DNA of 64,000 nt from Symbiodinium natans. Lineage: Eukaryota; Sar; Dinophyceae; Suessiales; Symbiodiniaceae. The DNA is taken from NCBI GenBank assembly GCA_905221605.1, contig CAJNDS010000091.1, positions 844,238 through 908,237 of the forward strand. The letters run 5' to 3'. Positions within the stretch are counted from its first letter, which is position 1. Each line of letters begins with the position of its first letter. Shown piece after piece: positions 8,097 through 36,670 of this stretch. The notes beneath the pieces are model-generated. The model was not told the DNA's origin. It made no database searches and saw only the letters and a list, made by a program, of their open reading frames with translations. The position numbers and the translations under genes were made by a program.

Positions 8097-8400
8097 CAAA
8101 CCCTAAAACCTAAACTGCTAAACTCCAAAATCCCAAACCCTAAACTCCGACAAACTCCTAAACCCCTAGACCGTAACCCTAAACTCCTAAACTCCTAAAT
8201 CCTAGACTCCTAAACCCCCAACCCACCACCCCCCCCCAAAAAAAAAATAAAAATAAAATAAAATAAAAAATAAATAAATAAAAATATATATATCTTGAAT
8301 CCCGAGTTCTGGCCATAAAAGAAGTTGAAGCTTTTAAGCTTTTTTTTTCAAAGGTTGCTACTGGGCATAATACAGCTGTCAGACTAGCAAGATAAAAACA
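8097..8400. other. Border segment: decayed CCCTAAA, poly-C and A/T-rich tract
   Basis: Degenerate CCTAAACTCC repeats to about 8220, then poly-C, then an AAATAAAATA/TATATA stretch. The last telomere-type unit is near 8220 and the first GTCWGAC heptamer is at about 8380, so this is the left edge of the heptamer domain. No gene seen. Confidence 0.6.
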
Positions 8401-8717
8401 CATGTTGCACATGCAGAGTTACTTGAAGCTGCAAAGAACCCTTTTTGCAAAGCAGCGGCTGGCAATTGTAAGCTTGCACGAAATAAGGAGTAACAGGTCT
8501 GACACAACACAGTGACATTGACGGTGAAACTTGGTCTGACTTAGGAACTTGCCTGGCAAAGCCTTGACGGGAATGTTGCCTAGCAGAATCTTATTGACTG
8601 TCGTACTGTTAGGAGCAGACAATCATCCGCGCTGCACTCACTCATCAGTGGCCTTGGAAACTGCAGCAAACTCAGGCAATGATGTGACTGTGACGTTCAA
8701 AAAACCAGGACAAGGGG

Positions 8718-11285
8718 GCCTTCCATGCCAGAAGATGCTGGGTACCGACTGAAGAAGTGTTCACTCGTCCAGTCTGACAGGCCACCTGCAGAAACCCAGC
8801 ACGCGCATCAGCGCTTAGCCGTGCTGTCTGACGCCGGACCAAGGCGTGTTGGCCAAAATCTCGCAGGCCCTTCCCAGCAAAATCAGCCCCACACCCGGCC
8901 AACGGTGTAAGAACCGGCACTTTATACCTGGTCCGTGCTCGGTCCTTTGGTAGGGCGTCTGACTCAGATGCAAGAAGCAGTTCATCAATTGAAATTTGAC
9001 TGAAAGGATAATTGAATTTTCATTGTCTGACACACGCAAACTGCAAATAGGCGGGAGTAACAGAGTAACACATGTGTGAAGCAGCAGTCGAAGTAATGGC
9101 CTTCCACGCCAGAGGATACTGGGGATCGTCAACTGGATAGATGTTCGTCCAGTCTGACAGGCCACCTGTGGAAACCCAGCACGCGCATCAGCGCTTAGCC
9201 GTGCTGTCAAACGCCGGACCAGGGCGTGTTGGCCAATGTTTCCCCAGACCCTTCCCAGCACCCTCAGCCCCACACCCGGCCAACGATGTGAGAACCGGCA
9301 CTTATACTTGGTCTGTGCTCGGTCCTTTGGTCGGGCGTCTGACTCAGAACCCAGCGGGCGAGAAATCTGACACTGTGCCACAATCACGTCCGTTTACTTG
9401 TATTTAACCAAAGCTGGAAAATCAAGCTGTCAGATCACTCACACTCGCAAAATTTCAAAGAGACGGCAGTAACAGTAGTAACACGTGTCAAGCGGCCTTC
9501 CATGCCAGAGGATGCTGGGTACCGACTGAAGAAGTGTTCACTCGTTCAAGTCTGACAGGCCACCTGCGGAAACCCAGCACGCGCATCAGCGCTTAGCCGT
9601 GCTGTCTGACGCCGGACCAAGGCGTGTTGGCCAAAATCTCGCAGGCCCTTCCCAGCACACTCAGCCCCACACCCGGCCAACGGTGTAAGAACCGGCACTT
9701 TATACCTGGTCCGTGCTCGGTCCTTTGGTAGGGCGTCTGACTCAGACCAAAAGCGACTGGCAAGCCTTCTCGTCCAAAGATTTAAAATTTGAGTCATTAT
9801 TAATCATCTGACAGCATTCGCACACAACAGGCAAAACCTTGAATTTGCAGTCTCGGAAAAGCTACGACGACTTGTCAGAGCTAACAGACACACAGCCAGC
9901 AACCCCCAGCCCAAAAGCAGTAAGTCTGTAGGCCTTCCATGCCAGACGGTGCCGGGTATCGACACAAAGAATGTTGCACTCATTTCTGTCTGACAAGCCC
10001 ACTGCAGAAACCCAGCATGCGCATCAGCGCTTAGCCATGCTGTCAAACGCCGGACCAGGGCGTGTTGGCCAAAATTTCCGCAGACCTTTCCCAGCACACG
10101 CAGCCCCACACCCGGCCAACGATGTGAGAACCGGCGACTTATACTTGGTCCGTGCTCGGTCCTTTGGTAGGGCGTCTGACTCAGAAGCAAGCACCCGAGG
10201 AGTCTCACACTGTAGCAAGAAGCAAGTCCCTTCACTTTTCACCAGTGAGACGCCTGAGATTGTGTCTCACACGCACAATGACAAAGCTGTAACAGGTGTC
10301 AAGCAGCAAATCAATGTCCAAGACTTACGACAGCCTTCCATGCCAGAGGATGCTGGGTACCGACTGAAGAAGTGTTCACTCGTTCAAGTCTGACAGGCCA
10401 CCTGCAGAAACCCAGCACGCGCATCAGCGCTTAGCCGTGCTGTCTGACGCCGGACCAAGGCGTGTTGGCCAAAATCTCGCAGGCCCTTCCCAGGCCCCAC
10501 ACCCGGCCAACGGTGTAAGAACCGGCACTTTATACCTGGTCCGTGCTCGGTCCTTTGGTAGGGCGTCCGAATCACCAGAAGCGGCGGCTACATATACTAC
10601 GGACGCATTGCCATTGCTGGCCAGCATGTCTAAGAAATAATATGCTGGCAGGGACTCGCCATACGCGCAAGAAGCTTGACAGAACTATCACTTTCAGCAC
10701 GCATATGGTTTATTTCAAGAACGCAGGCAAACCAATCAAACAGCATTGACAGACAGTACTAGACTCACTAGACAGGATCTGGCCTTCCATTCTTGAGCTG
10801 CTGGGTACTACCGCCAGGGCCAAATGAAGACTTGGACATGCAGAACGCTGCACTCATTCATGTCTGACCTGCGGAAACCCAGCACGCGCATCAGTGCTTA
10901 GCCGTGCTGTCTGACGCCGTGTTGGCCGAAGTTTCCCCAGGCCCTTCCCAGCACCCTCAGCCCCACTCCTGCCCAACGATGTAGGAACCGGCGTTTTCAT
11001 AAAGGTGGTCCGTGCTCGGTCTGTTGGTAGGGCATCTGGGAAAAGTCTTACTGAGCAGTTGTGTGCATACTGTGTCACTCAGCACGACAAAATCAGAAAT
11101 CAAAAATTAATTTGGCACTCACTCATTAACCTGTGTCAAGCAGCAGACTTATGGCCCTGGCCTTGCGAGGATGCCGAGGACTCGACATGTTCACTTGTCT
11201 GACAGGCCACCTGAAGAAACCCAGCACACACATCAATGTTTAGCAGTGCTTCAGACGCCAGTCTACGACATGTTCCCCCGAGAAA
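8718..11285. repeat. Seven-copy ~400 bp tandem repeat with conserved ~250 bp core
   Basis: Cores begin GGCCTTCCATGCCAGAGGAT and end GGTAGGGCGTCTGACTCAGA. They lie near 8718-8967, 9098-9347, 9494-9747, 9931-10186, 10332-10571, 10791-11040 (diverged) and 11153-11285 (partial). Spacers of 120-200 bp are unrelated, so the core alone is conserved. The minus strand is open in long stretches (PKDRARTRYK and LSADARAGFPQVACQT recur), but more than one frame stays open. I see no reason to call a protein. Confidence 0.9.
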
Positions 11286-11299
11286 TCTGAGACTGGCCA

Positions 11300-11800
11300 T
11301 GGGGTGGGTGAGTGTGAGGAGTCGTGCAGGGAAATGAGGGTGTACGTCAGGGTAACGACAGTTGGTGAGTTTGTTCATCAAAACTGCACACAGTACATTG
11401 GATTGATACCACATATCATGACCATGATACGTTTCCCAAGTTTGACAGGCGGCTTGTCAGAAAGATGCACATGCACTGAAGGGCTGGTTTTGCCTAAGCT
11501 GCTCCCTTCAGGGTTTTGGGGGGAAGGTGTTTTGATTTGTGTCATTGCCTCTGACTGTCCCTCTAAATGCTCCAGTTTCTCTGACTCACAGCCACTGCCA
11601 CTCGCTGTCACCGACTCCATCCAGTCGGCCGAGTCGGGCCTTTGCCAGCAGCGTTTTTAAAACGCTGCCAGAATTCTGCGCACACACACTGCCCTGGCTG
11701 GCTACTACACGCGGCAACCATGTCTGACGTGCCCTGCAAGCACCTGTGCTATTCCAAGTCTGACTGCTTCCCGTCTCAGGGGAGGATGACATGATCCGTC
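11300..11800. other. Spacer between tandem repeat and first gene of the domain
   Basis: Several overlapping ORFs exist on both strands, none with a recognisable motif. GTCTGAC copies occur near 11720 and 11758. I see no supportable gene. Confidence 0.5.
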
Positions 11801-11803
11801 GTC

Positions 11804-12379
11804 TCACAGGAAGTGCCATTCCTCCGGGTCCATGTCCTCCTCCTCCTCGTCCACAGCCAACCGGTTCTGGAGCGCAGGTGGCGGCAGAACGATCATGTAG
11901 GTGCCGATGAAGAACAATACCCGAATGTGTCCGACATCGGTGTAGACAGGGTAGTAGTACGTGCGCGTCCCCCCGAGCATGTCTGGAAGCTCTTGCTGAA
12001 TGCAGCCCGCTGGTCTGAAGCAGAGGTCCCATCGTCGGATACCTGCGTCTGACGCACAGGCGAAGTCCGTGAGCAGAATCTGGCCTGATGTTGTCATTGA
12101 CCACAATCCTTGCGATCCCCATGCTCTGCGATTTGTACGGGTGCGGCGAAAAAAGAAGATGCGGCCGTGGAGTGGTGATCGTGCATGCCTTCGCTCTGAC
12201 TCCAGCAACAACCACTCGTCCCTCCTTCCAGAACCCTGGTGGTAAAACTTGAACAAGAAGACCTGATAAGGCGGCATGCTGACGCTTGCCCAGGAAAGGA
12301 GGCCGAGTCGACAGGCACACTTGGGGGTTTCTTGAGATGGTAGGGAGCGGCGGGCGAGCAGGTTTCGAGAAGGACACAT
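11804..12379 (-). CDS. Terminal exon of an unrecognised protein with acidic tail
   Basis: The minus frame is open for 191 codons and ends at a stop after MDPEEWHFL. Protein-like segments include MPPYQVFLFKFYHQ, GRIFFFRRTRTNRRAWG and TDVGHIRVLFFIGTYMIVLP; the C-terminus is strongly acidic (DEEEEDMDPEE). The first ~35 codons may be intron read-through; MPPYQ near 12280 is a plausible later start. It lies downstream of the exons at 12429-13343, probably in the same gene. Two competing minus frames are open over part of the region, but this one has the most natural composition. No family recognised. Confidence 0.5.
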   Translation of the reverse strand: MCPSRNLLARRSLPSQETPKCACRLGLLSWASVSMPPYQVFLFKFYHQGSGRRDEWLLLESERRHARSPLHGRIFFFRRTRTNRRAWGSQGLWSMTTSGQILLTDFACASDAGIRRWDLCFRPAGCIQQELPDMLGGTRTYYYPVYTDVGHIRVLFFIGTYMIVLPPPALQNRLAVDEEEEDMDPEEWHFL

Positions 12380-12428
12380 TACAAGAATCCAGGGAACTGC
12401 TTGGAGCTGTTGGTGTCCAATGAGAGTC

Positions 12429-12668
12429 TCAGACAGTCAGATATTCGCATCCGAGGCTCTGACTGGAGGCAATCTCCGCTGTGGCCAGATTCAGCTCGTG
12501 CCTTGGCCCAAACTTCACTGAAAAAGCTACACCCCACACCGCGCTGCCCCCGCCCCTGAACTTTCTGACTGGAGGGCGAAGGGAAAACTGAAGGACGCAG
12601 GCCCTGTTGTCAAGGCTACCACCTGGGCTGGTGGCCACTCGGCGGAGGTTGCAGCCTGCGAGAAGCAA
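12429..12668 (-). CDS. Probable exon upstream of the acidic-tail exon
   Basis: Minus ORF reading VATSPGGSLDNRACVLQFSL, then FRGGGSAVWGVAFSVKFG and ELNLATAEIASSQSLG. The composition is protein-like, while the opposite strand is poor. It sits 50 bp upstream (in the minus direction) of the exon at 11804-12379. Splice borders are not resolved. Confidence 0.4.
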   Translation of the reverse strand: MLLAGCNLRRVATSPGGSLDNRACVLQFSLRPPVRKFRGGGSAVWGVAFSVKFGPRHELNLATAEIASSQSLGCEYLTV

Positions 12669-12916
12669 CAGCTTACGCAGGTGAGGAAAGAGTTTGAAGC
12701 AAGCACTTCTGACGTGAAACTACTCGCTCAAAAGTCTAAGACATGCAAGGCAGGTATTCCATCATGAACATGCGCACTGCGCAAGCTGCACAGAAGCACC
12801 ATATTCACACTCGCAGCACCTTGTCTTTCACCAAAAGGCCTCAGACATTGCTCTCGAACAAGTTGATTCAAGACCAAGGCATCTTAATTTGCAGGGCCCT
12901 CTGAGTTTGTCAGTGG

Positions 12917-13343
12917 TCAGTCAAGGTCTGACATGTGACATGGGCAGCCAGGCATGAAGGACATATGGTACGACACATGGCAGGTGCAAAAGTCTGCCAG
13001 AGGCTGCCACTCTCTGACGAGTGTCCACACTGCAGTCTCACACTTCAACGTTTCAAGTCGAGACCCCTGAAATCGCAGATCGCGAACGTGGGCTACAGTG
13101 CCGAGGGCATGGCTCTGCATTTGTGCAAGGTCTCAAGTGCCTCGAGCAGGTTTGTCAGAATTGAAAAATGCGACAATGACAAGACTGCAACACAAGCAAG
13201 GAAAGAGCAGGGATGACAACAACCTGAACATCTCCCCCAGCTCGCGCAAGAGTAGTTTCAAGTTTCCTCGCTGTTGCTGCTGCGGTCTGACTGGAGTCCA
13301 CGGGTGTATCCGAATCCAAGCTCAAAACCAGACTGTCCGACAT
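12917..13343 (-). CDS. Possible exons of the same minus-strand gene
   Basis: Two adjacent minus frames look protein-like: SLVLSLDSDTPVDSSQTAAA (ORF 13155-13343) and TAVWTLVREWQPLADFCTCH (ORF 12917-13120). They probably belong to the gene ending at 11804. Overlapping plus ORFs also exist. No motif recognised and borders are unknown. Confidence 0.3.
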
Positions 13344-13434
13344 AAAGTCACAGTCAGAAACTTCACAATCTTGAGTCTAACAACTCCTCGCATGATTCTG
13401 CAGCAAGTTGCAAGGTCCGACTGACTTATGCAGT

Positions 13435-14010
13435 CTAACGAGGATGTCCTGGGACAAAATTGAAATACTTCAGATATGTCAAGATCGGGAGGCAGACCTT
13501 CACAAGCATGGCAGCACGCATGCCGTTGCCCAGCATCTCGCGGAGCTCCGACAATGTGTGACGCGAGTAATCCACCTCAGCCGGGTTGAGGCCCAAGCCA
13601 CGGACCATGTCTGCCTTGTCCATGAAGCCCTTCTTCTGATAGTTGTACCAAAGGCAACCGGTTGTCAACGTGGCCAGTCCTCCGTCTGACCTGTAGTGGC
13701 CCCGGTCCACTGTCTGACTCAAGTCTGCCAGAGGGTCTGACGTCCCAAGCCCGGCCGACTGCAGCATCATCTCATACACATCGACCTGTGCCCGGTGCCA
13801 AGCGCCCATTTCTGTGCCACTGCTGGCTCTCCTTTTCACCGGGGGCGGCTTCACATCTGACGGTATGCGTTTGGCTTTCACGGCCTTCCTTAGATGAGCC
13901 ACTCGAAGGACGGACACGCAAAGACGGACTGAACGACGACAAGACCATGAAAAACGTCTCAGATTGAAATCACAGTCAGGTACTGTGCTCAAAGATGAGA
14001 GTGCCACAGG
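13435..14010 (-). CDS. C5 cytosine methyltransferase-like, C-terminal exon (motifs IX-X)
   Basis: Continues the gene at 14148-15137 after a short intron. It starts in basic sequence (KPPPVKRRASSG) and contains CLWYNYQKKGFMDKADM. It then has SRHTLSELREMLGNGM followed by a hydrophobic helix, AAMLVKVCLPILTYL. The LGNGM plus helix matches conserved motif X (GN-V/M ... helix) of DNA C5 methyltransferases, which folds back onto the SAM site. The stop is at the low-coordinate end after FVPGHPR. At least five TCAGAC motifs are embedded in frame (SDVKP, TSDPLAD, LSQTVD, YRSDGG). The exact exon start is not resolved. Confidence 0.65.
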   Translation of the reverse strand, partial: PVALSSLSTVPDCDFNLRRFSWSCRRSVRLCVSVLRVAHLRKAVKAKRIPSDVKPPPVKRRASSGTEMGAWHRAQVDVYEMMLQSAGLGTSDPLADLSQTVDRGHYRSDGGLATLTTGCLWYNYQKKGFMDKADMVRGLGLNPAEVDYSRHTLSELREMLGNGMRAAMLVKVCLPILTYLKYFNFVPGHPR

Positions 14011-14147
14011 TTTGTAGTGTTCATCTGCCGAACAGGTCAGGGTGTGTCGCAAAGTGTTTCGTGAGGCTTCTTTGATGGAAGTGCTGTGACTGTGCAAACA
14101 GAGGTGCCAATGGATTAACACTCAAGAGACACATAATAAAAAAAGTC

Positions 14148-15137
14148 CTAATGACTACTGCAGCAAAGGTTCTTGCATGCCTCAGCGAAAAAACGATGGT
14201 ACTCAGTGTCGTCCTCCATGACTGACCGTGCTTTCGACACTGGGCCCTTGTCAGACCACGAGAAAGCAGCAGCAGAATGGCGTGGCATTTGGCTGCACAT
14301 CTCGCTGAGAATGCTCACCTCGCGAACCCAATCTGACGCAACGAAGTTGCTGTCTGACGAGCCCAACAGGACAACACGTGCACGACTCTCTGACTGAGGC
14401 AAGGCATCGACAACCATCGTGGCATGCGTGTAGTCCGGCAAGTCTGACTGGAGAGCTTCTTCGTACCACATCAAGGGGGTCTGACGTCCACCCTTTATGC
14501 GAGGCTGCAAGGCGCCCAAAACATTCTCCAGGACGTAGAACTTCCGCCGGTGTTTCTTCACGAACGCAAGACTTTCAACGAAAGTCTGACACTCTGGCTT
14601 GTTCAGGTCGATGGGGTCTGACGTGTAACGTTCTGAGTTGGACCTGCTGTTCAGCTTGCAGGAGAAACCGGACACAAATAAGTCCAGGTTCTGCATGCTC
14701 GGGTCTGACAACTTGCAGCAGCGGTTGTGCACCCAGCACGGCCCGGAACCTCTGACGCTGTACTTGATGTCCTTGAAGATGTGGTCAACGTCGAACGTCT
14801 CAGTCTGACGAAGCATGAACATCGCCGGCGCCTGCTTCATTTCTGACGCGCATACAGACGCAACCTCACCCTTCTTCAGCATCTTGGAGACAACATAGTG
14901 AGGCAGACCGGTGCCATCGCAGCCGCCTGCCATCATCAGAGGCGTCTGACGTCTCAGGCCACCGTCGGTCTGACTCTGCTCCAGTCCGGCGTCTGACAGA
15001 AGACTTGCCAGGAAGGATTGAAGATCGAACTCGTCGTCGGTCCAAACTGTCTGACGGCCCTCGTCACCTGTGTGGCGTGGTTTCTTGGCTGCCGGCCGTT
15101 TCATGGCTGCGGTGGTCTGACCTCGTTTTGGGGCCAT
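14148..15137 (-). CDS. C5 cytosine DNA methyltransferase-like protein, N-terminal exon
   Basis: I chose the ATG at 15137 (MAPKRGQTT, with a basic KRPAAKKP N-terminus suited to nuclear targeting). A start 11 codons earlier is open. Matches to the C5 methyltransferase order: a SAM-binding glycine loop AGGCDGTGLPH (about residues 70-80); an acidic residue in ASEMKQAP (about 99); the catalytic loop with Cys160 in VSGFSCKLNS, where the family normally has PC; ENV at 204-206 in YVLENVLG; and an R-x-R motif in SESRARVVLLGS (about 250-260). It therefore probably methylates cytosine in DNA in the nucleus, or descends from such an enzyme. Known dinoflagellate retrotransposons carry captured DNMTs, so a mobile origin is possible. 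About 20 TCTGAC heptamer-type sites lie inside this one exon, giving repeated RQT, CQT and SD residues. Confidence 0.7.
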   Translation of the reverse strand: MAPKRGQTTAAMKRPAAKKPRHTGDEGRQTVWTDDEFDLQSFLASLLSDAGLEQSQTDGGLRRQTPLMMAGGCDGTGLPHYVVSKMLKKGEVASVCASEMKQAPAMFMLRQTETFDVDHIFKDIKYSVRGSGPCWVHNRCCKLSDPSMQNLDLFVSGFSCKLNSRSNSERYTSDPIDLNKPECQTFVESLAFVKKHRRKFYVLENVLGALQPRIKGGRQTPLMWYEEALQSDLPDYTHATMVVDALPQSESRARVVLLGSSDSNFVASDWVREVSILSEMCSQMPRHSAAAFSWSDKGPVSKARSVMEDDTEYHRFFAEACKNLCCSSH

Positions 15138-15170
15138 GCTGCCTGGGAATTCTCTGACAGGCACTGTCAC

Positions 15171-15480
15171 TGACTGGGCTTAGGGATGCCTTCTGAGCCT
15201 CTTATCTCTGCGGCTTGATGCAGTTCGATTCTGACTCAGTATTAGTAAATAAGACTGACGTCCAGTGATTTCACAACAAGCCACGGCCTGCAGAAAAATG
15301 TCCAGCTCCAAGTCTGCCAAAACAGGACTGGCCTCAAAGCACTGCATCAGCTAGCACACAAGGCATCAAATAACAAGTGAACCCAGGGGTCTGTTCACAA
15401 GCCAGCAAAACAAAACTCATGATCAGACAGGCCTGGCTGACAGGTCGAAAAACACGTTCACATCATCTGTCTTACTCAGT
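15171..15480. other. 5' flank of the methyltransferase-like gene
   Basis: No ORF with protein-like content. It lies directly upstream of the ATG at 15137 on the minus strand and may contain the promoter or 5' UTR. Nothing resembling a TATA or TTTT box stands out. Only degenerate TGACTC/TCTGAC sites are present. Confidence 0.4.
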
Positions 15481-15481
15481 G

Positions 15482-15829
15482 TCACCACCAGTGGCAACGA
15501 AGTCTCACGCACTGCGAGGTTCCAGGCATGAAATCATATGACAGGATAGCACATCCAATCACTTCAGAACTCCAAGTCAGTTCCACTGCAGTCTGACAAG
15601 CACAGAAGCTGGAATGCATGAGCGAGTCAGGATCCACGACAAAAGACATGTATTGAATTCCCCTCTGATTCTGACAGATACGCTGTACACATGCTGAGCT
15701 GAGCACTTGTCTGACATTTCCGCCAGCAAGGTAGCGATGAGCATCACTGCAAGCAGTGGCCTCGGGAGTCATTATAATTATATAATCTGCACTCTCATTC
15801 CTAGCGACGCCCACACCACAAAGGAACAT
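15482..15829 (-). CDS. Possible exon, unrecognised
   Basis: 115-codon minus ORF with protein-like stretches ATACSDAHRYLAGGNVRQVL and IQYMSFVVDPDSLMHSSF, ending in HWW before a stop. Three heptamer sites are inside. No family recognised. It may be the end of the gene above (16.2-17.8 kb) or chance; borders are not resolved. Confidence 0.3.
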   Translation of the reverse strand: MFLCGVGVARNESADYIIIMTPEATACSDAHRYLAGGNVRQVLSSACVQRICQNQRGIQYMSFVVDPDSLMHSSFCACQTAVELTWSSEVIGCAILSYDFMPGTSQCVRLRCHWW

Positions 15830-16190
15830 TTGTCAACACAGTGACGTGAATCTGCTGAGTCATGCACTTCCGCGGAAGACGGTCTGACCTGACATTCAAA
15901 TTTCAAAAGAGCGAGACAGCAAGTCAGTCTCGGGCCTAAGGTCTGACTCACACACACACACAGACACATATCGTTCTCGGAAGCAGAGTGTCAGGCCGAT
16001 GGTCTCTCGCACTTCACCAATCCTGTCCTGTCAAGAGCCGATGCTGCATGACTCCGACCTGCCCTATGCCTTGGAAGAGCTCACAAGCGGCAAGCACTGG
16101 CACGAGATTGTTTCTGCGCTGCCTGCCTCCAAAATTATTTCTGACTGTCACGCACTTTGCGACGACAGTTGGGTGACGAGAATGACATTG

Positions 16191-16661
16191 TCACATGTCG
16201 TTCTCTTTGACCAAGGCCATGGTCTGACAGGCTAGGAGCAACATTGTCGCAGCTGTGGGAACTGAGGCCATGTTGGCCAGTGTGTGCGAACTGTATGACG
16301 GCTTGCACAGACTAAAGTCCAAACAGCAGCCATGCAGGCGGCTCGTCTCGCCCAACGTCATCTGTCTGACATCACGTTTTGTCTTAGTCAGCATTGTACT
16401 TCCAGGTGTCAGAAAAGAAGCCACAGTCTCCAGCCCGGAATCAATGACTCGCACCTTCTTACGAGCTGCATCCATGAACAGCGCACTCTGGTTGGCGGGC
16501 TTCATCCTGTCCAGATACGCGATCGCATCCTGCACTCGTTGCCGCTTCTGGCTGACAAGAACAGGCGGGTCGACTTCATGATTCTCGGCCATGACTGCGT
16601 CTGACGCTTCCTTCACGTTGCTACTCGATGCCGCCGAAGAAGGTCGGGCAGCACCTTGCAC
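16191..16661 (-). CDS. Terminal exon with methyltransferase-like C-terminal motifs
   Basis: The minus frame reads VQDAIAYLDRMKPANQSALF, then RQMTLGETSRLHGCCLDFSL, then SHTLANMASVPTAATMLLLA, ending KENDM before a stop. 'R-x-T-x-x-E-x-x-R-L-x-G' is the pattern at the end of the target-recognition region of C5 methyltransferases (usual form RxLTxxExxRLQGFP). The last helix stands where motif X should be, although its GN pair is missing (ANMAS). I read this as the 3' exon of a second, divergent or degenerate methyltransferase-like gene whose upstream exon is at 16957-17808. Several other origins remain possible. Confidence 0.45.
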   Translation of the reverse strand: MQGAARPSSAASSSNVKEASDAVMAENHEVDPPVLVSQKRQRVQDAIAYLDRMKPANQSALFMDAARKKVRVIDSGLETVASFLTPGSTMLTKTKRDVRQMTLGETSRLHGCCLDFSLCKPSYSSHTLANMASVPTAATMLLLACQTMALVKENDM

Positions 16662-16956
16662 GGGGATGTTGCGAACTCAAGGCAGACCCCCTTACACGCA
16701 ACCCCAGGAAGGTCATGAGCCACGTCCTGCCTGAGCGAGATTGTTCATGAAGCTCGTCCTTGTCATACTTCTACATTTTCTGCTCTGTCTTGCTGTTGCA
16801 ACCACCATCAGAAATCCAATTTTCCAGGCAGCGGTGCAAAGAGGCATTGACGTCTTTCATTTTCTTGATGGTTTCGGAGCCCATGGACGGCTTCTCCTTG
16901 TCGCACCACCTTGGCACACAAAAGTGTATTCGCAACACGCCAATGGACTCTCCACT

Positions 16957-17808: not shown

Positions 17809-17849
17809 GTTTTAGCTGGCAGACTAGTCTTCTGCCCGAAATATTCTGA

Positions 17850-26804: not shown

Positions 26805-26894
26805 GACGGACAGACAGAGACTGTGAGAGAGGCAACTCAATGACAATGAGACTGAGACTGACAGATTCAGTGTCCGACAAGCAACACGAATGGT

Positions 26895-27000: not shown

Positions 27001-27039
27001 AATGACATAACAGTATGGGCTTGTCAGTCAGCACTTGTC

Positions 27040-27170
27040 ACACCTTCCTCCCCTCGATCGGGCGCAAGTCCACCATGCGGCGGACCACCGTCATGTCTGA
27101 CAGGCACAACTTGAACTTCACCATGTTGTACTCACCACGAACATCCTCAGAGACCACACTTCTGCTGCTG
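27040..27170 (-). CDS. Short internal exon
   Basis: The minus frame SVVSEDVRGEYNMVKFKLCL then SDMTVVRRMVDLRPIEGRKV is clearly protein-like and ends at a stop just below 27040, so a donor should lie near 27045. One heptamer codes for the SD in CLSDMTV. Part of the presumed hAT-like gene. Confidence 0.45.
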
Positions 27171-27439
27171 CATGTGTGCAATCGCACACCAAGCCACAAA
27201 AATGCTGAGGTTGGGAGTGAAAGGCTTAATAATAAGGTCTTACCGTCACCGAAACGCGACTTAACTTCCCATAACTCTGAAGTAAAGCAGCTAAGCTTTG
27301 CAACGATGGTGTGTAGTCGGGTTGGACGCAGCAACAGCTGGAGCACACAAGCGTTTTTGGGGCCCTCGACTGTTGGAATGGTAGCTGACCCCATCCACCC
27401 GCAACACAAACACGTTAAATAATGCATTTGAAATTCCGG

Positions 27440-29035
27440 CAAGGGTGACTCCGACAGGTGAGACCGTGACCCCTCCTACCCCCACAGAGCCCACCACAGA
27501 CAGCAACGGAGACCACCACGAGCGGTTTGAGCAGCTAAAAGTGCGTTTGGGACATCCCGGGAAGGGGTGCCCGAGAGGTCTGACTGTGACCCATCCAACC
27601 CACAACGGAGCCCACCATTGACACTTTCAGCGTCATTAAGTTGGGTTTATTAGTAGGGAGGCGACCCATCCAACCCCACGAACGGAGCCCGCCACAGACG
27701 CTTTCAGCAGCCACAAGTGCTTTTGGGACAGGTCTGAACACAGAACCCATCCACCCCCGAACGGACCACGCCGGAGACGCTTTCAGCCGGCAAAAATGCG
27801 TTTGGAGATAGCCCGCAAGCGGGGTGTCCGAGAGGACCCCTCCAACCCCCTAACAAGTCCGCCACAGACGCTTTCGGCAGCTAAAAGCGCGTTTGGGCAG
27901 CACGGCTGGCGAAGTGTCCGAGTGGTCTGAACACAACCCATCCACACCCCAACGGAGCACACCAGAGACGCTTTAAACAGCTAAAAGTGCGTTTGGAGAT
28001 CCCAGAAGCGGGGTGGCAGACAGGTCCAACCGTGACCCCTCCAAACCCCCAACAGAGCCCGCCACAGACGCTTTCAGCAGCTCAAAGCGCGTCTGGGCGG
28101 GCCGGCTGAAGGGGTGTCCAAGAGGTCTGAACACAACCCGTCCAACCCCCAACTGCCCCCAACGGAGCACACCAGAGACGCTATTAACAGCTAAAAGTGC
28201 GTTTGGATATCCCGGAAGCAGGGTGTCCGACAGGTCGAACCGTGACCCCTCCGACAGAGCCCGCCACAGACGCTTTCAGCAGCTGAAGGCGCGTCTGGGC
28301 AGCTCGGATGGTGGGGTGTCCGACAGGTCTGAACACGACCCATCCAACCCCGAACGAACCACGCCAGAGACGCTTTCAGCAGCTTAAAGTGCGTTTGGAG
28401 ATCCCGGAAGCGGGGCCTGAACGACAGCCCCCAACACAGCCCCCACCCATCCAACCCCCAACAAATCACACCAGAGACGCTTTCAACAGCTAAAAGTGCG
28501 TTTGGCGGCATTGGCATTGGAGATCCCGGAAGCGGGGACTCCGACAAGTCGAACCGTGACCCCTCCAACCCACCAACAGAGCCCGCCACAGAAGCTTTCA
28601 GCAGTGCTGGTCGAGGTCACAATCCGCCCAACCCCCAACAGAGCACACCAGAGACGCATTTAAAAGCTAAAAGTGCGTTTGGAGATCCCGGAAGCAGGGT
28701 GGCCGGCAGGTCGAACCGTGACCCCTCCAAACCCCCAACAGAGCCCCCCACAGACGCTTTCAGCAGCTAAAAGTGCATCTGGGCGGCTCGGCTGGTGGGG
28801 TGCCCGACAGATCTGAACACAACCCATCCAACCCCCAACGGAGCACACCAGAGACGTTATGAACAGCTTAAAGCGCGTTTGGAGATCCAGGAAGCAGGGT
28901 GTCCGACAGGTGGAATCGTGACCCCTCCAACCCCCCGACAGAACCCGCCACAGACGCTTTCAGCAGCTAAAAGCGCGTCTGGGCGGCTTAGATGGCGGGG
29001 TGTCCGACAGGTCTGGCTTTGCTTGTTGAGTGTCA
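27440..29035. repeat. Satellite: ~100 bp monomers in a ~200 bp higher-order repeat
   Basis: About 15 monomers each carry AGACGCTTTCAGCAGCTAAA. Two types alternate. Type A has GCACACCAGAGACGC, then GTGCGTTTGGAGATCCCGGAAG and CGAACCGTGACCCC. Type B has CCGCCACAGACGC, then GCGCGTCTGGGCGGCTCG and CTGAACACAACCCATCC. Starts fall near 27699, 27774, 27865, 27966, 28066, 28176, 28268, 28369, 28474, 28592, 28650, 28752, 28852 and 28951. A related single monomer sits at about 29480-29560. ORFs here are repeat translations, not genes. Confidence 0.9.
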
Positions 29036-29039
29036 GCTA

Positions 29040-29976
29040 GCGAAATCTGCTAACTACACAGCTGCTGGTACCAGCCGAAGACCCCAAACACACTTTCAGC
29101 TGCTGAACACGTCCGTGGCGTGTTCTGTGTAGGGTTGAATGGACTCAGGGTCAGACCTCTCAGACTACCACGTGCCGAGTTCTCCAAACGCATTTTTAAA
29201 TGATGAAAGCGTATCCGGTGCGCTTTGCCGCAGGTTTAAAGGGTCCAGGTCTTTACTAGTAAACAAAACCCCTGACAGCCGAGGCCCCCAAATGCATTTT
29301 CAGCTGCCCAAACTGTCTGGCGTCAGTTCCATTTGGAATTCGAAACACCAGACCCAGAAGAAGCAGATATGCCTCTGACAAGGAGTCAAGCATCAGGACT
29401 GGCTGCACCTAAGGTGTAATAGCCTGACCACAACCTCACCAATGGGCCAAGACAGACAGTAAGGGGTAGTCCGACAGGTAGTGACCCATCCAAACCCAGA
29501 AAGGAGCACGCCACAGACGCTTTCAGCAGCCAAAAGTGCGTTTGCAGATCCCAGCAAGGGGTCGGCTGGTCCGAGCAAAACTCAACAGCAGACTGCTTCA
29601 GAGCCTGGAAAAAAAGCACACCACGCACACGTCGGTGGCCAAAAATGCATTTGGGGGCCTTGCCTGTGCAACGAAAAGGTTTCACTGCTTGCCATTCAGA
29701 ACTCAAATAATTAAATGCCACTTTCGGGGCACCCTGGTGTTTCCAGTGACACAAAGAAAGTTCACAAGAGTAAACATCTATGCTTAGTTTTGAGTCTTGG
29801 AAGAACATGAAAATCAAAGTCGCGACGCCCAATGCCAGTCCCCCAGTGCTAACAAGTATGTCCTCGGCCCACCCGGTGGAGAGGACTTTGTTCTTCTTGA
29901 ACAGGATGCGATCGTCGTCATACCTGGGCAAATTGCAGCACTGGTGATTATTACTCTGGCAGGGTATGCCGTCCAA
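29040..29976. other. Spacer with decayed satellite monomers
   Basis: Contains scattered CACTTTCAGCTGC and one fuller monomer near 29480-29560, but no convincing exon on either strand. Heptamer sites are nearly absent. Probably intron of the gene containing the zinc-finger exon. Confidence 0.4.
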
Positions 29977-29989
29977 CTACAGCAGGCAA

Positions 29990-30640
29990 TGACCGTAAGT
30001 GCGACAGAAGCACAACACCTTGGCAAGGCACCCCACAATGCGCTCGTGGTCATACGCTTTGTTGTGTGCCACAGGGTAGTTGCTAGCGTCTGACCTGTTG
30101 GCAAGCTCAGCTCGTCTGACGAACTCCGCTGCCTGGGCCCCCAAGGGTGTGCGAACCACCTCTAACGCTAAACGGATCTGGGCAGCTGTGGGGCCAAAAA
30201 GGCACTCATCTGACTGGGAGTCTGCTGCAGCGGCGACGGAGTCTGACTGCCCTTGCAGAAAAGCCTTCATTGCAACCTTGTGAAAGTCGGTGTTGCTGGC
30301 GTGTCTGCCAAGGTCAATCTTTTGAAGCACTCCGTCAGCACCCTTCTTACATCGCATCCACACAGACGCACGGCAAGACACCGCCCCACGTGTCGAATCC
30401 TGTGGGCGAGTCTTACCATAGTCGCGACAATACTTGCAGCCCAGGCCCCAGAACTCGGTTTCGTCTGACTCCACCAACCAATCAAACTCCTTTAGCCACT
30501 TCCGGCGATTCTTGATGTAGAAGCAACGGTTGCAAAGTCTGACTGCCTTCTTGAGGCTACCATGTCGCTCAACGCAGCGTCGCTGGTGAGCGATGTCAGG
30601 GCTCCGAGCCCTAATTGACATTATTATTATGACGGTCTGG
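29990..30640 (-). CDS. Exon with BED/TTF-like zinc finger, N-terminal part of hAT-like gene
   Basis: The minus frame reads ERHGSLKKAVRLCNRCFYIK, WLKEFDWLVESDETEFWGLG, CKYCRDYGK, VLQKIDLGRHASNTDFHKVA and LEVVRTPLGAQAAEFVRRAE. C-x2-C in CKYC and H-x5-H in RHASNTDFH, preceded by W/F residues, make a BED/TTF-type DNA-binding zinc finger as found at the N-terminus of hAT transposases. It ends at a plausible donor (GCCAAG|GTGTTG) near 30020. Sequence above 30640 is probably intron or 5' UTR. Six heptamers are coded as SD, VR or T/S residues. Confidence 0.55.
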
Positions 30641-30834
30641 CTTACTACTTTAAACTTTGGCAAGTTCTTATGTCTGACAACTTTCTTATGCCTGACCAGT
30701 TGAGTTCCGGGAATTTTTTGAGCACAGCTGGGCAGTCTAAGTGGTTTGTGATTCAGCTCCTGGTGAGTGGGTCTGGCTGTCGAGGCTGCGCCAAAAAATA
30801 GCACAGAGTCACAAGAACACTGACTGACCACATT

Positions 30835-31200
30835 GCAAGTTCAAGAATTCAAGCGCCAAGTCTGACTGCACCAGGCCACCCGGCCACGAGGAAACGAAGA
30901 CCTGGACCTGCCCAGACAAGACAATGCTGATGTCTGATGAACTGCACATTATTATTCACATGTAAACTGATCTGTTGAACAAGCTGACTCAGGCAACGGC
31001 AGATATCACTTCTTTTGACATGTCGCGGTCTGAGAAGCCACAATTAAGGTCGGTCTCGCGCCTTTGGCACTAAGACAAAATTCCGGAGGGCAAGTCAGAC
31101 GCAGGACTGGTCCCGACAACAGCTAGCCACTTCTTATGTGATTTAATTGAATTGTCTGATTTAGTACTACAGTGTCGCCTGTCTGACATCAAGTCCTGAG
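30835..31200. other. Spacer or intron
   Basis: No protein-like frame on either strand. Two heptamer sites (about 30861 and 31183) and one reversed copy (about 31096). Could hold an intron or a gene border. Confidence 0.35.
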
Positions 31201-31202
31201 AC

Positions 31203-31650
31203 TTATCGCCGCCCTCTGTTCAAGTCCCGGCCAGGCCAGTTGCCACCCCACCGGTCTGACGAATTCCAGTCTGAGGATTTCCAGTCTGAGGATTTCCAGT
31301 CTGACACAGACCAGTCTGACTGCCTCTGTCGCCACCCGGGATTCCAGCCATGCCGCCCATCCTTCCAGGAATGATCGCCGTGGCTGCTCCAAGACGCCTC
31401 ACTGTCTGACGGTTCTGGGCTCGTCTGTTTGCCTGGTTGGTCTGGCTCGGCATTGGGGACCGGGACGCTGGGGGCTGCCGTCTGACTCGCTGTCTGACCA
31501 AAGTTGGGGGTTGAAGGGCCTGGGTTTGTCTTACCATCGCCCTGGCTGGCGTCGGGTGACATCTTTTCAGCCCACCACTGCTCCAGAACTTGTCTGACCT
31601 GCTCGGGGCAAAGGTCCTTTTGGCCGGTCTGACTCGGATCCCAGTGAGCC
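31203..31650 (-). CDS. Low-complexity exon with repeated S-D-W units
   Basis: The minus frame begins HWDPSQTGQKDLCPEQVRQV, LEQWWAEKMSPDASQGDGK and passes a P/T/Q-rich segment. It ends in SDWKSSDWKSSDWNSSDRW, G/W-rich and arginine-rich tails. The repeated SDW comes from repeats of CAGACTGGAAATCCT, that is, clustered heptamer-type sites. Such W/G/S-rich segments are common in dinoflagellate gag-like or RNA-binding proteins, but nothing more specific can be said. A CA repeat and TAATAATA tract upstream (31655-31760) mark intron. Confidence 0.5.
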
Positions 31651-31799
31651 TGCAGCATGCACACACACACACACACACTGCCACAGCTAAATAGTAGGAT
31701 ACAATAATAATAATAATAATTCATAGTAATAATCATAATAAAATACAAAAACATAATATAACAATAATTAAACTAACACAAAAATAATTACTAACTTTA

Positions 31800-32040
31800 G
31801 CATTGCACTAGTCCGATTCCGAGCGGCATCTTGCTTCGGCGTCGCCGGCTCCTCCGGATCATAAAATTGCTCCTGCTGCGTTTCCTGGCTGTCGTCGTCG
31901 GCCTTGACGGCGTCTGACTGACCTGTGGCCTTCGCATCAGCAGGAGGACCAGTGTCCGACGGCTGGCCAGGCGTCGAGGGACCAGCACCACCTTCAGCTT
32001 CGTCGTCTGCCGGAGGTGTCGGAGGAAGGGGCATCGTGGG
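31800..32040 (-). CDS. Short acidic/proline-rich exon
   Basis: The minus frame reads MPLPPTPPADDEAEGGAGPS, TPGQPSDTGPPADAKATGQS and DDSQETQQEQFYDPEEPATP. Disordered, acidic, no domain. It is flanked by A/T-rich introns. It probably belongs with the exons at 31203-31650 and 33078-33737. Confidence 0.45.
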
Positions 32041-32119
32041 GGGCGGTCCTGGCGGAGGTGCCGGTACTTCCTCAGATTTGACTGAGAGGCAGGACCAGGA
32101 ACAATGACAAACACAACGT

Positions 32120-33077
32120 TGCTAGCAAAAGATAATAAAGAATAATGTCAGTTTGCAGCCCGAGGTTCAGTCTGACAGCCGACTGTTCGGAAGCACTTGT
32201 ACGGGTACCAGTCTGACACGGTGTAATCCCACGACTGTGGGTGAAGACTCACTTAGTTGCAAGACAAAATTAGACTCTGACAAGTCTGACAAGCAATCTT
32301 GAAATGAAATCATTGACATGTCATTGTCTGACACAAGTCCAGGCACTGAGCAAGTACTCTTTCTCGTGAGCCCAGCCAGCTATCAGGTGATTCGAGTCGC
32401 GGTAGTGGTGCGCCCTGTCGTACGCCACCCATTGTCCTTGGGCATAAGACAGTCTGACATGTCCTTGTCTGACATAAGCTAAGCGAAGCTTTATGAATGC
32501 AGACGAATTGAATTAAAATTAACTTAATTCTAATTATCCAAGCCACTGACGAGCTTGTACACGAGCTCAGCGGCGTACGCCTGTGCTCTGATGCGACTTG
32601 GATGTGTCATCGTGGCCAAGACGACCTGAAGCACACTCAGACTTTCTGGCAGTATGACAATGTCATGGCGGCCACGGCTGTCTGAGGATTCAATCATTCG
32701 GATTCAGATGAGGCGCCGCGTAGGACGCCCCGTCCACCTCCAGGCGTTGGAGGGCCCAATACATTGCCGGGCTGTGTTGGGCCACGTGGTCCATTATCTG
32801 ACAGCAACACAGGAGCAGCCGACGCGTTGTGGTTATTAAATTACTATGCCTGACTAGAAATGTTCAAAACGAATAATAATCAGTATCGACACTGTACTTA
32901 ATTAACAGTCTTGCTGATGTGAGGCCCGAGCAACGAAACCATCGATGGCGTCGCTCCTGGTGGCCTTGGGCGCCGTCGGCACGGGCACAGACGGGATCGC
33001 GTTCCAACCTCAATTGGACGCGGCATTCTGACAGTCAACTGATTGGGTGAGCAGGCTGAAACATTGTCTGGCTAATG
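32120..33077. other. Introns or spacer without clear exon
   Basis: Several heptamer copies (32171, 32210, 32284, 32325, 32452, 32466) and A/T-rich parts. A minus stretch near 32560-32640 is open but short. No gene I can support. Confidence 0.35.
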
Positions 33078-33737
33078 TTAACCCAAGCAGCACCGTTTGA
33101 CGGCTGCGTGGAGAATCTCGGCCTCCCGCTGCGGAACCCTTTCCCTGAGGGTTTCCATGAGCAGCCTTTGCCACTTCTGCAGGTCATCGGTGCTCCATGT
33201 CCTGACGGTCATGGGCCGACTCTGACTTGCCTGCCCTGCCTTGGGCTGGGAACGTGGCTGACCGTCTGATGACGACGTGTTGGGCTGGGAAGGTGGCTGG
33301 CCATCTGACGCTGCTGCCTGGGTTCTGGTCTTGGGCGGCGGCTGCGACTGGGATCTCGTCGTGGCCTGACTGACGGAACCTTTTTTTTTCATATAGGCTT
33401 TGCTGACCGGCCCACTGGGTACGCCGGTGTGGGCGGCGGCGGGGGCAGGAGTCGGGGCAGGAGTCGGAGCTTCTGGCACTGTTGGCAAGGGGGTCTGACT
33501 CATCATTGAGGCTGGAATGCCTTGCCGCACGACCGAGGGTTGGGGTGGAGGGCCAGCAGGCATTGGACTCGGAGCCGGCTGGGGCGTCTGACCACCAGCA
33601 GCCTTTGGAGTGGGAGCCGGCTGGGGTGTCTGACCACGTTCTGCCAGCTTCCTGTCGGCCTCAGAAAAAGTGGAGATTTCCGTGAGGTTGGAAATACTGA
33701 TATTGTCATCGTCCGCTCTGACTGGAATGGACGACAT
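33078..33737 (-). CDS. Proline/glutamine-rich exon with helical C-terminus
   Basis: The minus frame starts MSSIPVRADDDNISISNLTE and carries repeated GQTPQPAPTPKAAGG units. It continues with S/T/P/Q-rich sequence and ends with a helix-like segment WSTDDLQKWQRLLMETLRER and EAEILHAAVKR. The ATG at 33737 could be a start or internal. Heptamers form the GQT of the TPQPAP repeat. Probably mostly disordered; no function assignable. Confidence 0.55.
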   Translation of the reverse strand: MSSIPVRADDDNISISNLTEISTFSEADRKLAERGQTPQPAPTPKAAGGQTPQPAPSPMPAGPPPQPSVVRQGIPASMMSQTPLPTVPEAPTPAPTPAPAAAHTGVPSGPVSKAYMKKKGSVSQATTRSQSQPPPKTRTQAAASDGQPPSQPNTSSSDGQPRSQPKAGQASQSRPMTVRTWSTDDLQKWQRLLMETLRERVPQREAEILHAAVKRCCLG

Positions 33738-33744
33738 GGCTGCG

Positions 33745-34700
33745 AGGAGTCTGCCTGACTGCTTACTACTAAGTCGCTAGGGACATTAGTAGTGACACGG
33801 TCTGACAATGTCACTGACACTGACAATGAGAATCAGCTGGTAACCACGGCAGTAGTGCAGCTTACTGTTACTTTTATTTTAGTAATGTCGCGAGTCTGAC
33901 AAGTGCCGTGCTTCAGATTCAATATTCCTCACTGCTTGTCGCAAAATTGCACTGCAAATATAAACCTTGCTTCTCAATGCCTCCATGCACCCACAGACAA
34001 ATCATGCGAGCAAACTCAAACAGCGATGAATGACGTCGATGCCTTCTCATCTCCAACGCCAACCGTGGTCGTTTGAAAGCCAAACCTGGGCAGGTTGAAG
34101 AGGAATCGGAAGGACCAGTCTGTCTGACTCAGGAATGACGCAAAGCAAGGCTGCACTTGCAACACCAATCCAAGGCCCCAACATCATCTGACGAGGTGCT
34201 GCCACAACCTGCACAGTGATGAAATGCACGGGAACACCAGGGGAGGGGTCGCACATACGGAGCTACAAACCAAAGACGCCGCCCTAATGAACTCACTCAA
34301 GAGACTTTTCGAAAACTCAGCCATCGCCGCTTGCTCTGAGTCTGACGGACACAAGACCTTTCTGAGTCTGACGGACGCAAGACCTTTGGTCGGTCACTCC
34401 GTCTTACAGTTCGTCTGTACAGGAGTACGAGCTGCTCCCGGGCTAGGAACCGGGCGGTGAGGCACTGTGCAGTGAGGCTCTGGCACGTCTGACGGTGGAG
34501 GTGGCGTTGTCTGGCAGGGAGCGGTGAATTCTTCAATTGACATTGATTATTAAAAACATAGCTATTATTATTATTATTATTATTATTAAATGTTTGTTGA
34601 AGAGTCCTGCATGGCACCGATGAGGTCTATCGTTTTGTCCGCCAGCTTGACCTGAGCTTGTCTGACTTTACGAAGGCAAAAACAATTAATAATTTGATAC
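33745..34700. other. Intron with scattered heptamers and (TTA)n
   Basis: Contains GTCTGAC at about 33802, 33895, 34125, 34337, 34365 and 34490 and a (TTA)n tract at 34565-34590. Minus ORFs (34297-34617) look non-coding. No exon supported. Confidence 0.4.
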
Positions 34701-34744
34701 ATTGTCACATATTAATAAAAATAAAATTATAGAAAAAAACCTGA

Positions 34745-35382
34745 AACCAATGATGCCCAGGAGCAAAAGCCTCGGCCAGACTTGCGCTGGCAGCGTCTGA
34801 CGCTGGGACTAGGCTGCTGCTCGGTCTGGACTCGGACTTGTGGGACCAGTCATACCCGCTCGACCAGTCTGACGACCGCCAGCCTGAGGAATGCCACTGC
34901 CAGCTTGGCCGCTGCTGCCATTTCGACGAAGTGTTCCACCAGGAATCTGACAGCCATTTTTTCTGCTGCGGCGACTTCTGCGCCGGCTGGTTTGACCGGG
35001 TCTTGGCCTTGGCCCTGGCCTTCGCAGCATTGGTGGCCAGCTTCTCCTTCAGCGTTGCATCCCTGCTTCGATTTTTGGCCGGGTCTGACTTGTCAGGATT
35101 CGGAAACGTCTCTCCGACCAATGCACCAGGCAGAAGTAACGTCCTGTTGGAGTCTGACGACCCAGCATCAGAATCTTCACTGTCACCAGGCAGAAGTAAC
35201 GTCCTGTTGGAGTCTGACAACCCAGCATCAGAATCATCAGGTTCTGCTTTCGCATTGTCCTTGTCCTTGTCGCCAACGCAGGGTGCGTCTGACTTGGAAT
35301 CGGAAGCTAACCGATTCCTCAGCCTCTTGCCCTTTTTGAAGTGGGGCTTCCCGTACATCTCGGCCTTGCGCTTACGCACCAT
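34745..35382 (-). CDS. Probable first exon, basic and S/D/W-rich protein
   Basis: Starts MVRKRKAEMYGKPHFKKGKR, a basic nuclear-localisation-like N-terminus. It contains an internal duplication (SDSNRTLLLPGDSEDSDAG then SDSNRTLLLPG), a K/A-rich helix TLKEKLATNAAKARAKAKTR and a W/S/G-rich end SWQWHSSGWRSSDWSSGYDW. Nothing coding is visible immediately upstream, so 35382 is a likely start for the gene running to at least 31.2 kb. Function unknown. Heptamer-type sites form the SDSN and SDW units. Confidence 0.55.
35128..35233. repeat. 60 bp in-frame exon duplication
   Basis: CAGGCAGAAGTAACGTCCTG...GAGTCTGAC(G/A)ACCCAGCATCAGAATC occurs twice, 60 bp apart, differing by one or two bases. It adds 20 residues to the protein without breaking the frame, so the duplication is recent and tolerated. 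Confidence 0.85.
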
Positions 35383-35399
35383 GGCTTAGCTGCGACTCA

Positions 35400-35850
35400 A
35401 AAAAATAGTAGAGCTGGCTAGACTGCGTCTGACTGTGTGCAAGGCGCTCGTCGGAAAGAATCACGGCCCTGACCCTGGCCTACGGACAATTACGATGGCC
35501 TCCGACTCTGGCTGACTTGGGCCGATAGAATCACTGTGTCAAACCTCATGCCATGCTGGTCTGGCTGCATGAATGAAATGAAACAAGTAAATAAATCTGC
35601 TGAGTGGGCAATGAAGCAATTAATAGTATTCGGGCCTGCAGGTCCGAAAATGCCACGAAGTTGTTGACTCGGCCTGAGCAAAGGATTTGACATTCAATGA
35701 TTATTAAGTCTGACCCTGACAGCTCGCAGACTTATTTATTATTCTAATTCATTCAAACTCTCAAACTCAAGAATCTTGGCGCACCACTGCCACACGTCTG
35801 ACCTGGTACCTTAGTGACCCATTGGCACGCTCAGCTGACTGAGGCCAATG
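35400..35850. other. Upstream flank of the 35.4 kb gene
   Basis: No convincing ORF. GTCTGAC occurs at about 35426, 35708, 35795 and 35849. It may hold the promoter of the gene starting at 35382. Confidence 0.4.
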
Positions 35851-36450
35851 GTCTGACTCAGGGCCGTTGGCACCAAGCCAGCAGCTCACCTGAATCATCA
35901 CGACTGCACCGATGGCTCACCCGAAGGGGCCAACTCGAACAGGGCCGCCAGTAGCAGCGCACCTGTGTCAGACAGTGGGCCGATGGCTCACCCAGCAAGG
36001 GCCAACGAACGCACCACTGCACGCAAGGCTGTTGGCCTGCAGGAGTGGGCCGATCGGGCTCACCACCCAGCCAGCGCCACTGGCTCGCCTGACATGAAGG
36101 CACGCCCAGCATTACTGCTGGGGCCAACAGCTCACCACATCTTGCGCAAGGGCCATGGCATAGACCTGGGCCATGGCTCGCCTGTCTTACTCAGGGCCAT
36201 GGCCCGCCCAGCAAATGGCTGGGGCCAAGGCTCACCGCTTCAGACCTGGGACATGGCTCACCTCAGTCTTACTGAGGGCCATGTCACACCTGGCCTCCCG
36301 GGCCATGGCACGCCCAGCTGGGGCCAAGGCTCACCGTCCCCAGACCTGGGACATGGCTCACCCCAGTCTTACTGAGGGCCATGTCACACCTGGCCTGCCG
36401 GGCCATGGCTCGCCCCGAAAGGGCCAAGGCACACCGGCTTTCAATTGCAA
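35850..36450. repeat. Tandem repeat with GGCCATGGCTCACC units
   Basis: GGGCCATGGCTC(A/G)CC-type units recur every 15-40 bp. They are organised in three larger units of about 90-105 bp (about 36160, 36241 and 36341) starting CAGACCTGGGACATGGCTCACC and including CAGTCTTACTGAGGGCCATG. Plus-strand frames translate as repetitive peptide and are not taken as a gene. It marks the right part of the heptamer domain. Confidence 0.8.
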
Positions 36451-36460
36451 GCACTTGCGT

Positions 36461-36670
36461 CTGACGAACCCCCTAGCCTAAACCCTAAACCGACTAAGCA
36501 CCTAAATCCTAAACTCCCAAACCACTGGGCGCCCGGGCTCGGCGTGTCTGACAGCCACCTGGGTTTAATGGACCTGGCAGCACTACACCCAGACCCTAAA
36601 CCCTAGACCCCAATTCCGGTCTTACTGTTACTCAAATGTTAAACTTGCAGGGAGTGCCTGTTGTCTGACA
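36461..36670. other. Overlap of heptamer domain and telomere-type repeats
   Basis: The last three GTCTGAC copies (36461, 36545, 36662) lie among the first degenerate CCCTAAA units of the right flank. This is the only place where the two signals share sequence. No gene seen. Confidence 0.6.

Follow-up and report, generated by a model that had tools for sequence, protein, structure and literature searches.

We analysed a 64,000-nucleotide stretch (hereafter the window) of contig CAJNDS010000091.1 from Symbiodinium natans, a free-living relative of coral-symbiont algae. Between positions 8294 and 36838 lies a domain in which the heptamer GTCAGAC, read on the strand of the long reading frames (minus), recurs 141 times. 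An initial annotation, made from the letters alone, had described a 28-kb domain tiled by a strand-biased heptamer. The domain is real and its motif private to it; what that annotation had missed is its nature, a mobile element present in several copies and bounded by terminal inverted repeats. Its features, in window coordinates, are:

8294..36838, minus (long frames, GTCAGAC): whole mobile element, 28,545 bp, with inverted ends that recur in different flanks
8294..8309, plus: left terminal inverted repeat, CTTGAATCCCGAGTTC, with a partly similar subterminal A/T-rich stretch on its inner side
36823..36838, minus: right terminal inverted repeat; the same end is found in a second copy
8497..36669, minus: 141 copies of GTCAGAC (GTCTGAC on the plus strand), supported by exact count, expectation, neighbouring forms and flanks
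14151..15137, minus: main exon of a C5 DNA methyltransferase-like protein (homologues, profile match), with 12 GTCAGAC
13438..13895, minus: probably the second exon of that gene, start approximate; the homologues P0002 and P0003 run on into it
18815..19831, minus: second conserved gene, unknown function, with a motif-free relative (P0007)
8717..11261, minus: a unit of roughly 400 bp in seven diverged repeats, from repeat alignment
17917..18446, no strand assigned: nested inverted repeats, probably a later insertion, inside a motif-free stretch of 1,062 bp
22726..22727, no strand assigned: point at which two other copies (C513 and C1989) have a 1.1-kb segment that is missing here
27441..29015, no strand assigned: array of units of about 100 and 200 bp, inside the longest motif-free gap (27578-30088)

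Ends and copies of the element

We regard the domain as a mobile element because it has inverted ends and because those exact ends occur in several different flanks. The 16-bp terminal inverted repeats are identical to each other and perfect both in the window's own copy (C91) and in C513; C513, C1989, C539, C250 and C2322 denote copies on other contigs. An AT run adjoins each CTTGAATCCCGAGTTC edge of the window's element. A left-end search of the window's own genome (759 Mb, 2,543 contigs), which sets a lower bound on copy number, matched at least six places at 98-100% identity. All six left ends start with CTTGAATC, and the DNA preceding them differs except between C250 and C2322, where it is the same, giving five insertion sites. 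The right end was seen in two copies, C91 and C513.

The copies differ in completeness. C513 holds a complete copy (C513:233,633-265,414; 31,782 bp). The C1989 copy comprises a 5' part, beyond which lies other DNA containing an assembly gap, those of C539 and C250 are a 5' part and a left end, each ended by the contig end, and that of C2322 is a remnant interrupted by an 8.9-kb insertion. Across the left half, the C1989, C513 and C539 copies are 98.9-99.4% identical to the window's. We saw no target-site duplication in C513; the AT repeat on both sides of C91 would mask any there. Base composition also sets the element apart, with observed/expected ratios of 0.71 for CpG and 1.35 for TpG, against 0.47-0.58 and 0.83-0.92 in the window flanks. 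The boundary of a unidirectional gene block, as described in the available part of PMC8110479, is a less likely account of the domain because the exact element ends recur in other flanks.

Other repeats lie in and around these copies. The C513 copy contains, at about 252,500-254,460 of its contig, a 1.96-kb motif-free insertion that is AT-richer than the element (GC 0.40; in L136 and L137) and whose ends look inverted (GGTTCAAGG... / ...CTTTGAACCA). Telomere-like TTTAGGG/CCCTAAA arrays of mixed orientation fill the window flanks (1-8218 and 37019-64000). The window has 112 telomere-like clusters, 62 of them with at least three units, and the element holds only two single units; degenerate telomere-like pieces stand at 36477-36613, just within its right end, among intact GTCTGAC. 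Such arrays are plentiful in six of eight sampled genome stretches (L146-L151).

A strand-oriented word private to the element

An exact recount found 141 GTCTGAC on the plus strand of the window, with starts from 8497 to 36663, and 10 GTCAGAC, all within the element; both orientations are absent from the window's other ~35 kb. The initial annotation's manual counts of about 140 and 10 agree with this. Its chance expectation of about two of each was too low: a second-order Markov model of the domain, with the motif masked, gives 4.2 and 3.8, and in ten simulated sequences the top heptamer of any kind reached 12-15 copies. Its range, 8380..36670, takes in all 141 GTCTGAC and nine of the ten GTCAGAC but omits one GTCAGAC at 8378.

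The orientation bias is about 14:1 and, as had been claimed, follows the direction of the long reading frames. The sites could be targets of the element's methyltransferase, or of a nicking enzyme, reading GTCWGAC as a near-palindrome, in line with one of the roles first suggested; this would fit the C5 methyltransferase-like protein that the element encodes. We consider this hardly probable: a symmetric site gives no 14:1 orientation, and the same protein family occurs in motif-free relatives. A splice-donor or U1 site, one form of the splicing role first suggested, is not supported, with GTAAGT occurring once in sense and three times in antisense.

Copies of the motif are mostly single and, as first described, irregularly spaced, with slight clustering (coefficient of variation 1.10; variance/mean 1.3-1.6). 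The 24 flanking bases are unique for 120 of the 141 copies and resemble those of another copy for the remaining 21, which lie mainly in local duplications, 13 of them within the 400-bp repeats at 8.7-11.3 kb. One GTCAGAC is retained in all seven aligned units of those repeats and two more in four of the seven. G stands directly before 14 of the 141 copies, where 21-24% would be expected.

The motif runs through probable exons and other DNA alike, again as first described. It is denser in probable coding DNA than in the rest (7.24 vs 4.32 per kb if both motif gaps are excluded, 6.76 vs 3.53 if they are included). Across 18 long minus-strand frames it uses all three reading frames, encoding SD 43 times, QT 28 times ([RCGS]QT in full) and VR 13 times.

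The tiling belongs to the element, not to its location or to the species. Sense motif density per kb is 4.94 in C91, 4.59 in C513, 4.60 in C1989 and 5.53 in the C539 part. The flanks of the five insertion sites, the window's included, hold four GTCTGAC and no GTCAGAC in 79,946 bp, and a background sample holds two and one in 40,000 bp. This background comprises eight 5-kb pieces from four contigs, each bearing an element copy elsewhere, and the privacy of the motif is judged on such sampled DNA; a species-wide bias, which the initial annotation had named as the alternative, is thus not what we find. Beyond telomere-like and simple repeats, no other strand-private word was seen in the window's flanks.

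Sequences that came and went within the element point the same way. The motif is absent from the later insertion in C513 (1,963 bp) and from the window's nested inverted repeats (17.9-18.4 kb); the later insertion in C2322 (8,920 bp) has no sense copy and two antisense copies. The native 1.1-kb segment missing from the window's copy holds four. Because later insertions are motif-free and the native segment is tiled, location does not impose the motif. The element lineage gained its motif before the recent jumps.

The same strand bias could arise if an RNA-binding protein coated GUCAGAC in a long unspliced sense transcript and thereby kept it from early termination or decay, aided its export or passed it to a mobility complex. 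Such a reader would account for the strict agreement with the sense strand, for the higher density in probable coding DNA and for a motif alike in exons and other transcribed DNA. A motif tolerant at C3 and C7 and little at G1 and G5 (below) suits it too. Nevertheless, no RNA-binding protein was found among the element frames with Pfam, the inverted-repeat ends indicate DNA transposition, and the long frames with homologues all lie on one strand, so that DNA strand and transcription are inseparable here. We hold this explanation to be rather unlikely, though it is the main competitor of the reading we favour.

Substitution, and probable selection or drive, in the making of the motif

The conserved genes allow the motif to be compared with relatives that lack it. 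The predicted protein of 14151-15137 is similar to C5 DNA methyltransferases over the catalytic region (Cys, ENV). A profile of five homologues matches PDB 7r76 (an entry that calls itself Rad8 and that we take to be fungal Dnmt5) at E 2.5e-5, aligned at SC and ENV. Pfam PF00145 matches the frame weakly, at E 0.012, under the family cut-off, and a low-confidence structure model resembles C5 methyltransferases, though nothing matched it at E 0.001. We judged gene models frame by frame, and the exon junction of this gene was placed by eye. The second conserved gene has no Pfam match, and its structure model (pLDDT 34) is unusable.

In the methyltransferase-like main exon, 12 of 14 QT/SD signature sites are GTCAGAC. 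Aligned to the homologue P0004, well-aligned motif sites are replacements of the same length (RQT/HET, QSD/AKK, TSD/AQD and CQT/VQT). The homologue alignment that the initial annotation had proposed as a check therefore indicates, at the protein level, that the motif at well-aligned sites came by substitution, not insertion. Signature sites number one in P0004, two each in P0008 and P0009, 16 in P0002 and 17 in P0003, where P0002 and P0006 are S. natans proteins and P0003 is from S. tridacnidorum CCMP2592 (name as given in the available part of PMC8045281). A six-row tree places P0003 as the sister of the S. natans sequences (98/98). P0002 and P0003 have six signature columns in common and 10 and 11 elsewhere, four pairs of which fall within four columns. 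Judged by these alignments, the S. tridacnidorum relative has as many signature sites, mostly at other positions. In P0003 each of the eight QT has R, C, G or S before it, the residues that GTCAGAC allows there. A weaker trend of the same kind appears in the second conserved gene, with five QT in the window and none in P0007.

Codon choice was examined as well. SD is written TCAGAC in 44 of 60 cases, whereas among the 317 other serines only 42 use TCA; of the 34 QT, 26 lie within GTCAGAC. This test covered 15 of the 18 long minus-strand frames, omitting 8818-9393, 26539-27027 and 29389-29976 as repeat-derived or doubtful. Peptide repeats or codon usage are ruled out by this result together with the use of three frames.

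The initial annotation had also raised the scar of dispersed heptamer insertions. Insertions or peptide repeats could explain the 21 of 141 copies in similar surroundings, mostly local duplications, and a few protein sites do adjoin alignment gaps. The well-aligned sites are length-neutral, however, three frames are used (43/28/13), and surroundings are unique for 120 of 141 copies, which leaves this origin with almost no probability. Insertion scars are ruled out at the well-aligned sites; the N-terminal and loop columns (for example 31, 64, 72, 121) are gap-adjacent and not judgeable.

We next consider forms close to the motif. The exact word stands 34-fold above expectation, one-mismatch forms are enriched 2.6-fold (171 vs 66 expected), and two-mismatch forms are not enriched (423 vs 441 expected), making the gradient steep. 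Among sense forms, observed and expected counts are 15 and 1.1 for GTAAGAC, 7 and 0.8 for GTTAGAC, 22 and 3.8 for GTCAGAG, 15 and 2.8 for GTCAGAT, 14 and 3.9 for GTCAGAA, and 11 and 1.7 for GTCGGAC, four or five of which lie in the 28-30 kb repeat region. Pooled changes at G1 (16 observed, 8.9 expected) and G5 (7 and 4.8) are little enriched. Because tolerance differs by position, the spectrum suggests recognition over neutral decay. Simple decay of once perfect copies is likewise not favoured, since the commonest one-mismatch form, CTCTGAC (22), is a transversion and tolerance is position-dependent. One-mismatch forms lie no closer to intact copies than random places do (median 113 vs 79).

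The restriction of enrichment to one-mismatch forms is what weak selection or drive would produce. From the counts, the log ratio of motif to one-mismatch forms is about 2.6, and in this model the fitted advantage per motif site is small.

Directed mutation, for instance through repair or conversion that favours GTCAGAC in one strand, could in principle have built the tiling at no benefit to the element. Young copies show no constraint on resident motifs that would speak against it: motif columns differ at 7 of 1,151 positions and others at 256 of 28,827 (sums over pairwise copy comparisons), with no single comparison significant, so that the two vary about alike. Yet later insertions in the copies, and the flanks, stay motif-free, and one-mismatch enrichment is position-dependent with transversions commonest. 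Motif gains among copies are also few; changes amount to one base difference by which C513 gained or C91 lost a motif, and one indel gain or loss in C539. We judge such a process improbable.

A match to the seven-base seed of a small RNA, with the transcript as sponge or massive target, is very improbable. Seven bases, present on the sense strand only and irregularly spaced, would suit a seed, but the enriched shorter form is GTCAGA and not TCAGAC, opposite to the usual small-RNA seed hierarchy. S. microadriaticum does have Argonaute and small RNAs according to PMC3853145, in the available main text of which neither gtctgac nor gucugac appears.

A possible self-tag read by density

The reading we favour, at somewhat less than even confidence, is that this is a giant Symbiodinium DNA transposon whose lineage was saturated by substitution with a private self-tag, GTCAGAC, read by density. 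Weak selection or drive, which we infer to be the cause of the saturation, would fix point substitutions until the word fills the element lineage. A putative sequence-specific factor, probably encoded by the element, would bind the many sites of like orientation, cover the element and mark it as self, allowing escape from host silencing or choice for mobilisation, as VANC does on VANDAL. Most likely, the tag would work by density.

We propose a self-tag because VANC21 needs such a motif on VANDAL21 and because uptake sequences show near-match enrichment. VANDAL21 of Arabidopsis carries YAGTATTAY motifs that are dense, of one orientation, private to the family and bound by its own VANC21 (PMC5735166). 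VANDALs and their VANC anti-silencing proteins (also PMC10398659) resemble our case as a DNA transposon family with a dense, short, one-orientation motif that is rare elsewhere in the genome; specificity would come from density and not from the single site. In Neisseriaceae and Pasteurellaceae, DNA uptake sequences, whose near-matches are enriched by similarity through molecular drive (PMC1939737 and PMC2346458), likewise stand far above chance, with one orientation commoner in reading frames. Unlike these genome-wide, bacterial, competence-linked words, GTCAGAC marks one eukaryotic element in the DNA sampled, with a near-absolute 14:1 orientation. Chi and KOPS are also short strand-polarised words spread through genes, but they extend over whole bacterial chromosomes and are polarised by replication, whereas the heptamer tiling is restricted to one element. 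Some Symbiodinium retrotransposons reportedly carry a cytosine methyltransferase-like gene; unlike them, this element has terminal inverted repeats and motif tiling.

Several observations weigh against the self-tag. In VANDALs the motifs are found chiefly in non-coding DNA and increase in number via tandem repeats (PMC5735166), whereas in this 28-kb element most stand singly, they derive from substitution, and their density is highest in probable coding DNA; the terminal inverted repeats are a further difference from VANDAL. No Pfam match rose above cut-off in the 28 element reading frames, read as single frames in which introns hide gene parts, and neither a transposase nor a binding protein was identified among them by Pfam. 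In particular, there was no Pfam match to a VANC protein or a MULE transposase in single frames, and no VANC-profile search was made; a MuDR DNA-binding domain match at 21679-21999 (E 0.15) is below cut-off. Constraint on motif columns of young copies is not significant, at low power, and the P0003 evidence is protein only.

The methyltransferase-like protein makes it tempting to think of a connection with DNA methylation, but because motif-free relatives share its family it does not count as evidence for that.

A broader possibility, which we hold more loosely than the self-tag, is that a eukaryotic selfish element has overwritten its entire sense strand, coding DNA included, with a selected seven-letter identity code, a strand-written self-tag like an uptake sequence but in a nuclear genome, whose density is kept while sites turn over. 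If so, related elements should carry private words of their own, with readers to match. The tag seems to be carried through genes at the cost of altered proteins, on a fixed strand and in an element much larger than VANDAL and of a distant lineage. In this system one can test how a short word acquires selective value, how density persists while sites move, and how dinoflagellates distinguish element from host DNA. The estimated advantage per site can be checked by comparing copies.

Our literature search, which reached few subscription papers, found no report of this motif or element. Viral contigs were scanned for similar tiling, giving at least 120 loci, ranked together with L001, of which eight were examined. 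Six of the eight are dominated by one repeating context and nearly always use one or two frames, and L052 is a mixed case. Contexts do vary in L110, but this is a phage, with frames that look portal- and terminase-like by eye. The inverted repeat has one viral match, L001, which lacks tiling, and no relative of the methyltransferase was found in viral contigs.

The remaining observations concern other features. Rfam and ARAGORN found no RNA genes. Within the element, a long minus-strand frame at 29980-30840 has a Cys/His pattern that by eye resembles a transposase-type zinc finger, with no Pfam or PDB match. Outside the element, a long open frame at 57385-59109 (minus) matches the caspase domain PF00656 weakly (E 0.0013; 18.9 bits, cut-off 21.4). 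To the right of the C2322 remnant (L129, L130), a repeat is strongly strand-biased, with CATGGAC 70 vs 12, in ACCGTCATGGACC-like units. In the window's right flank, an array of 18-bp units at 54669-55143 (consensus GCCGTTGAATCTCCTCAA) overlaps long open frames on both strands.

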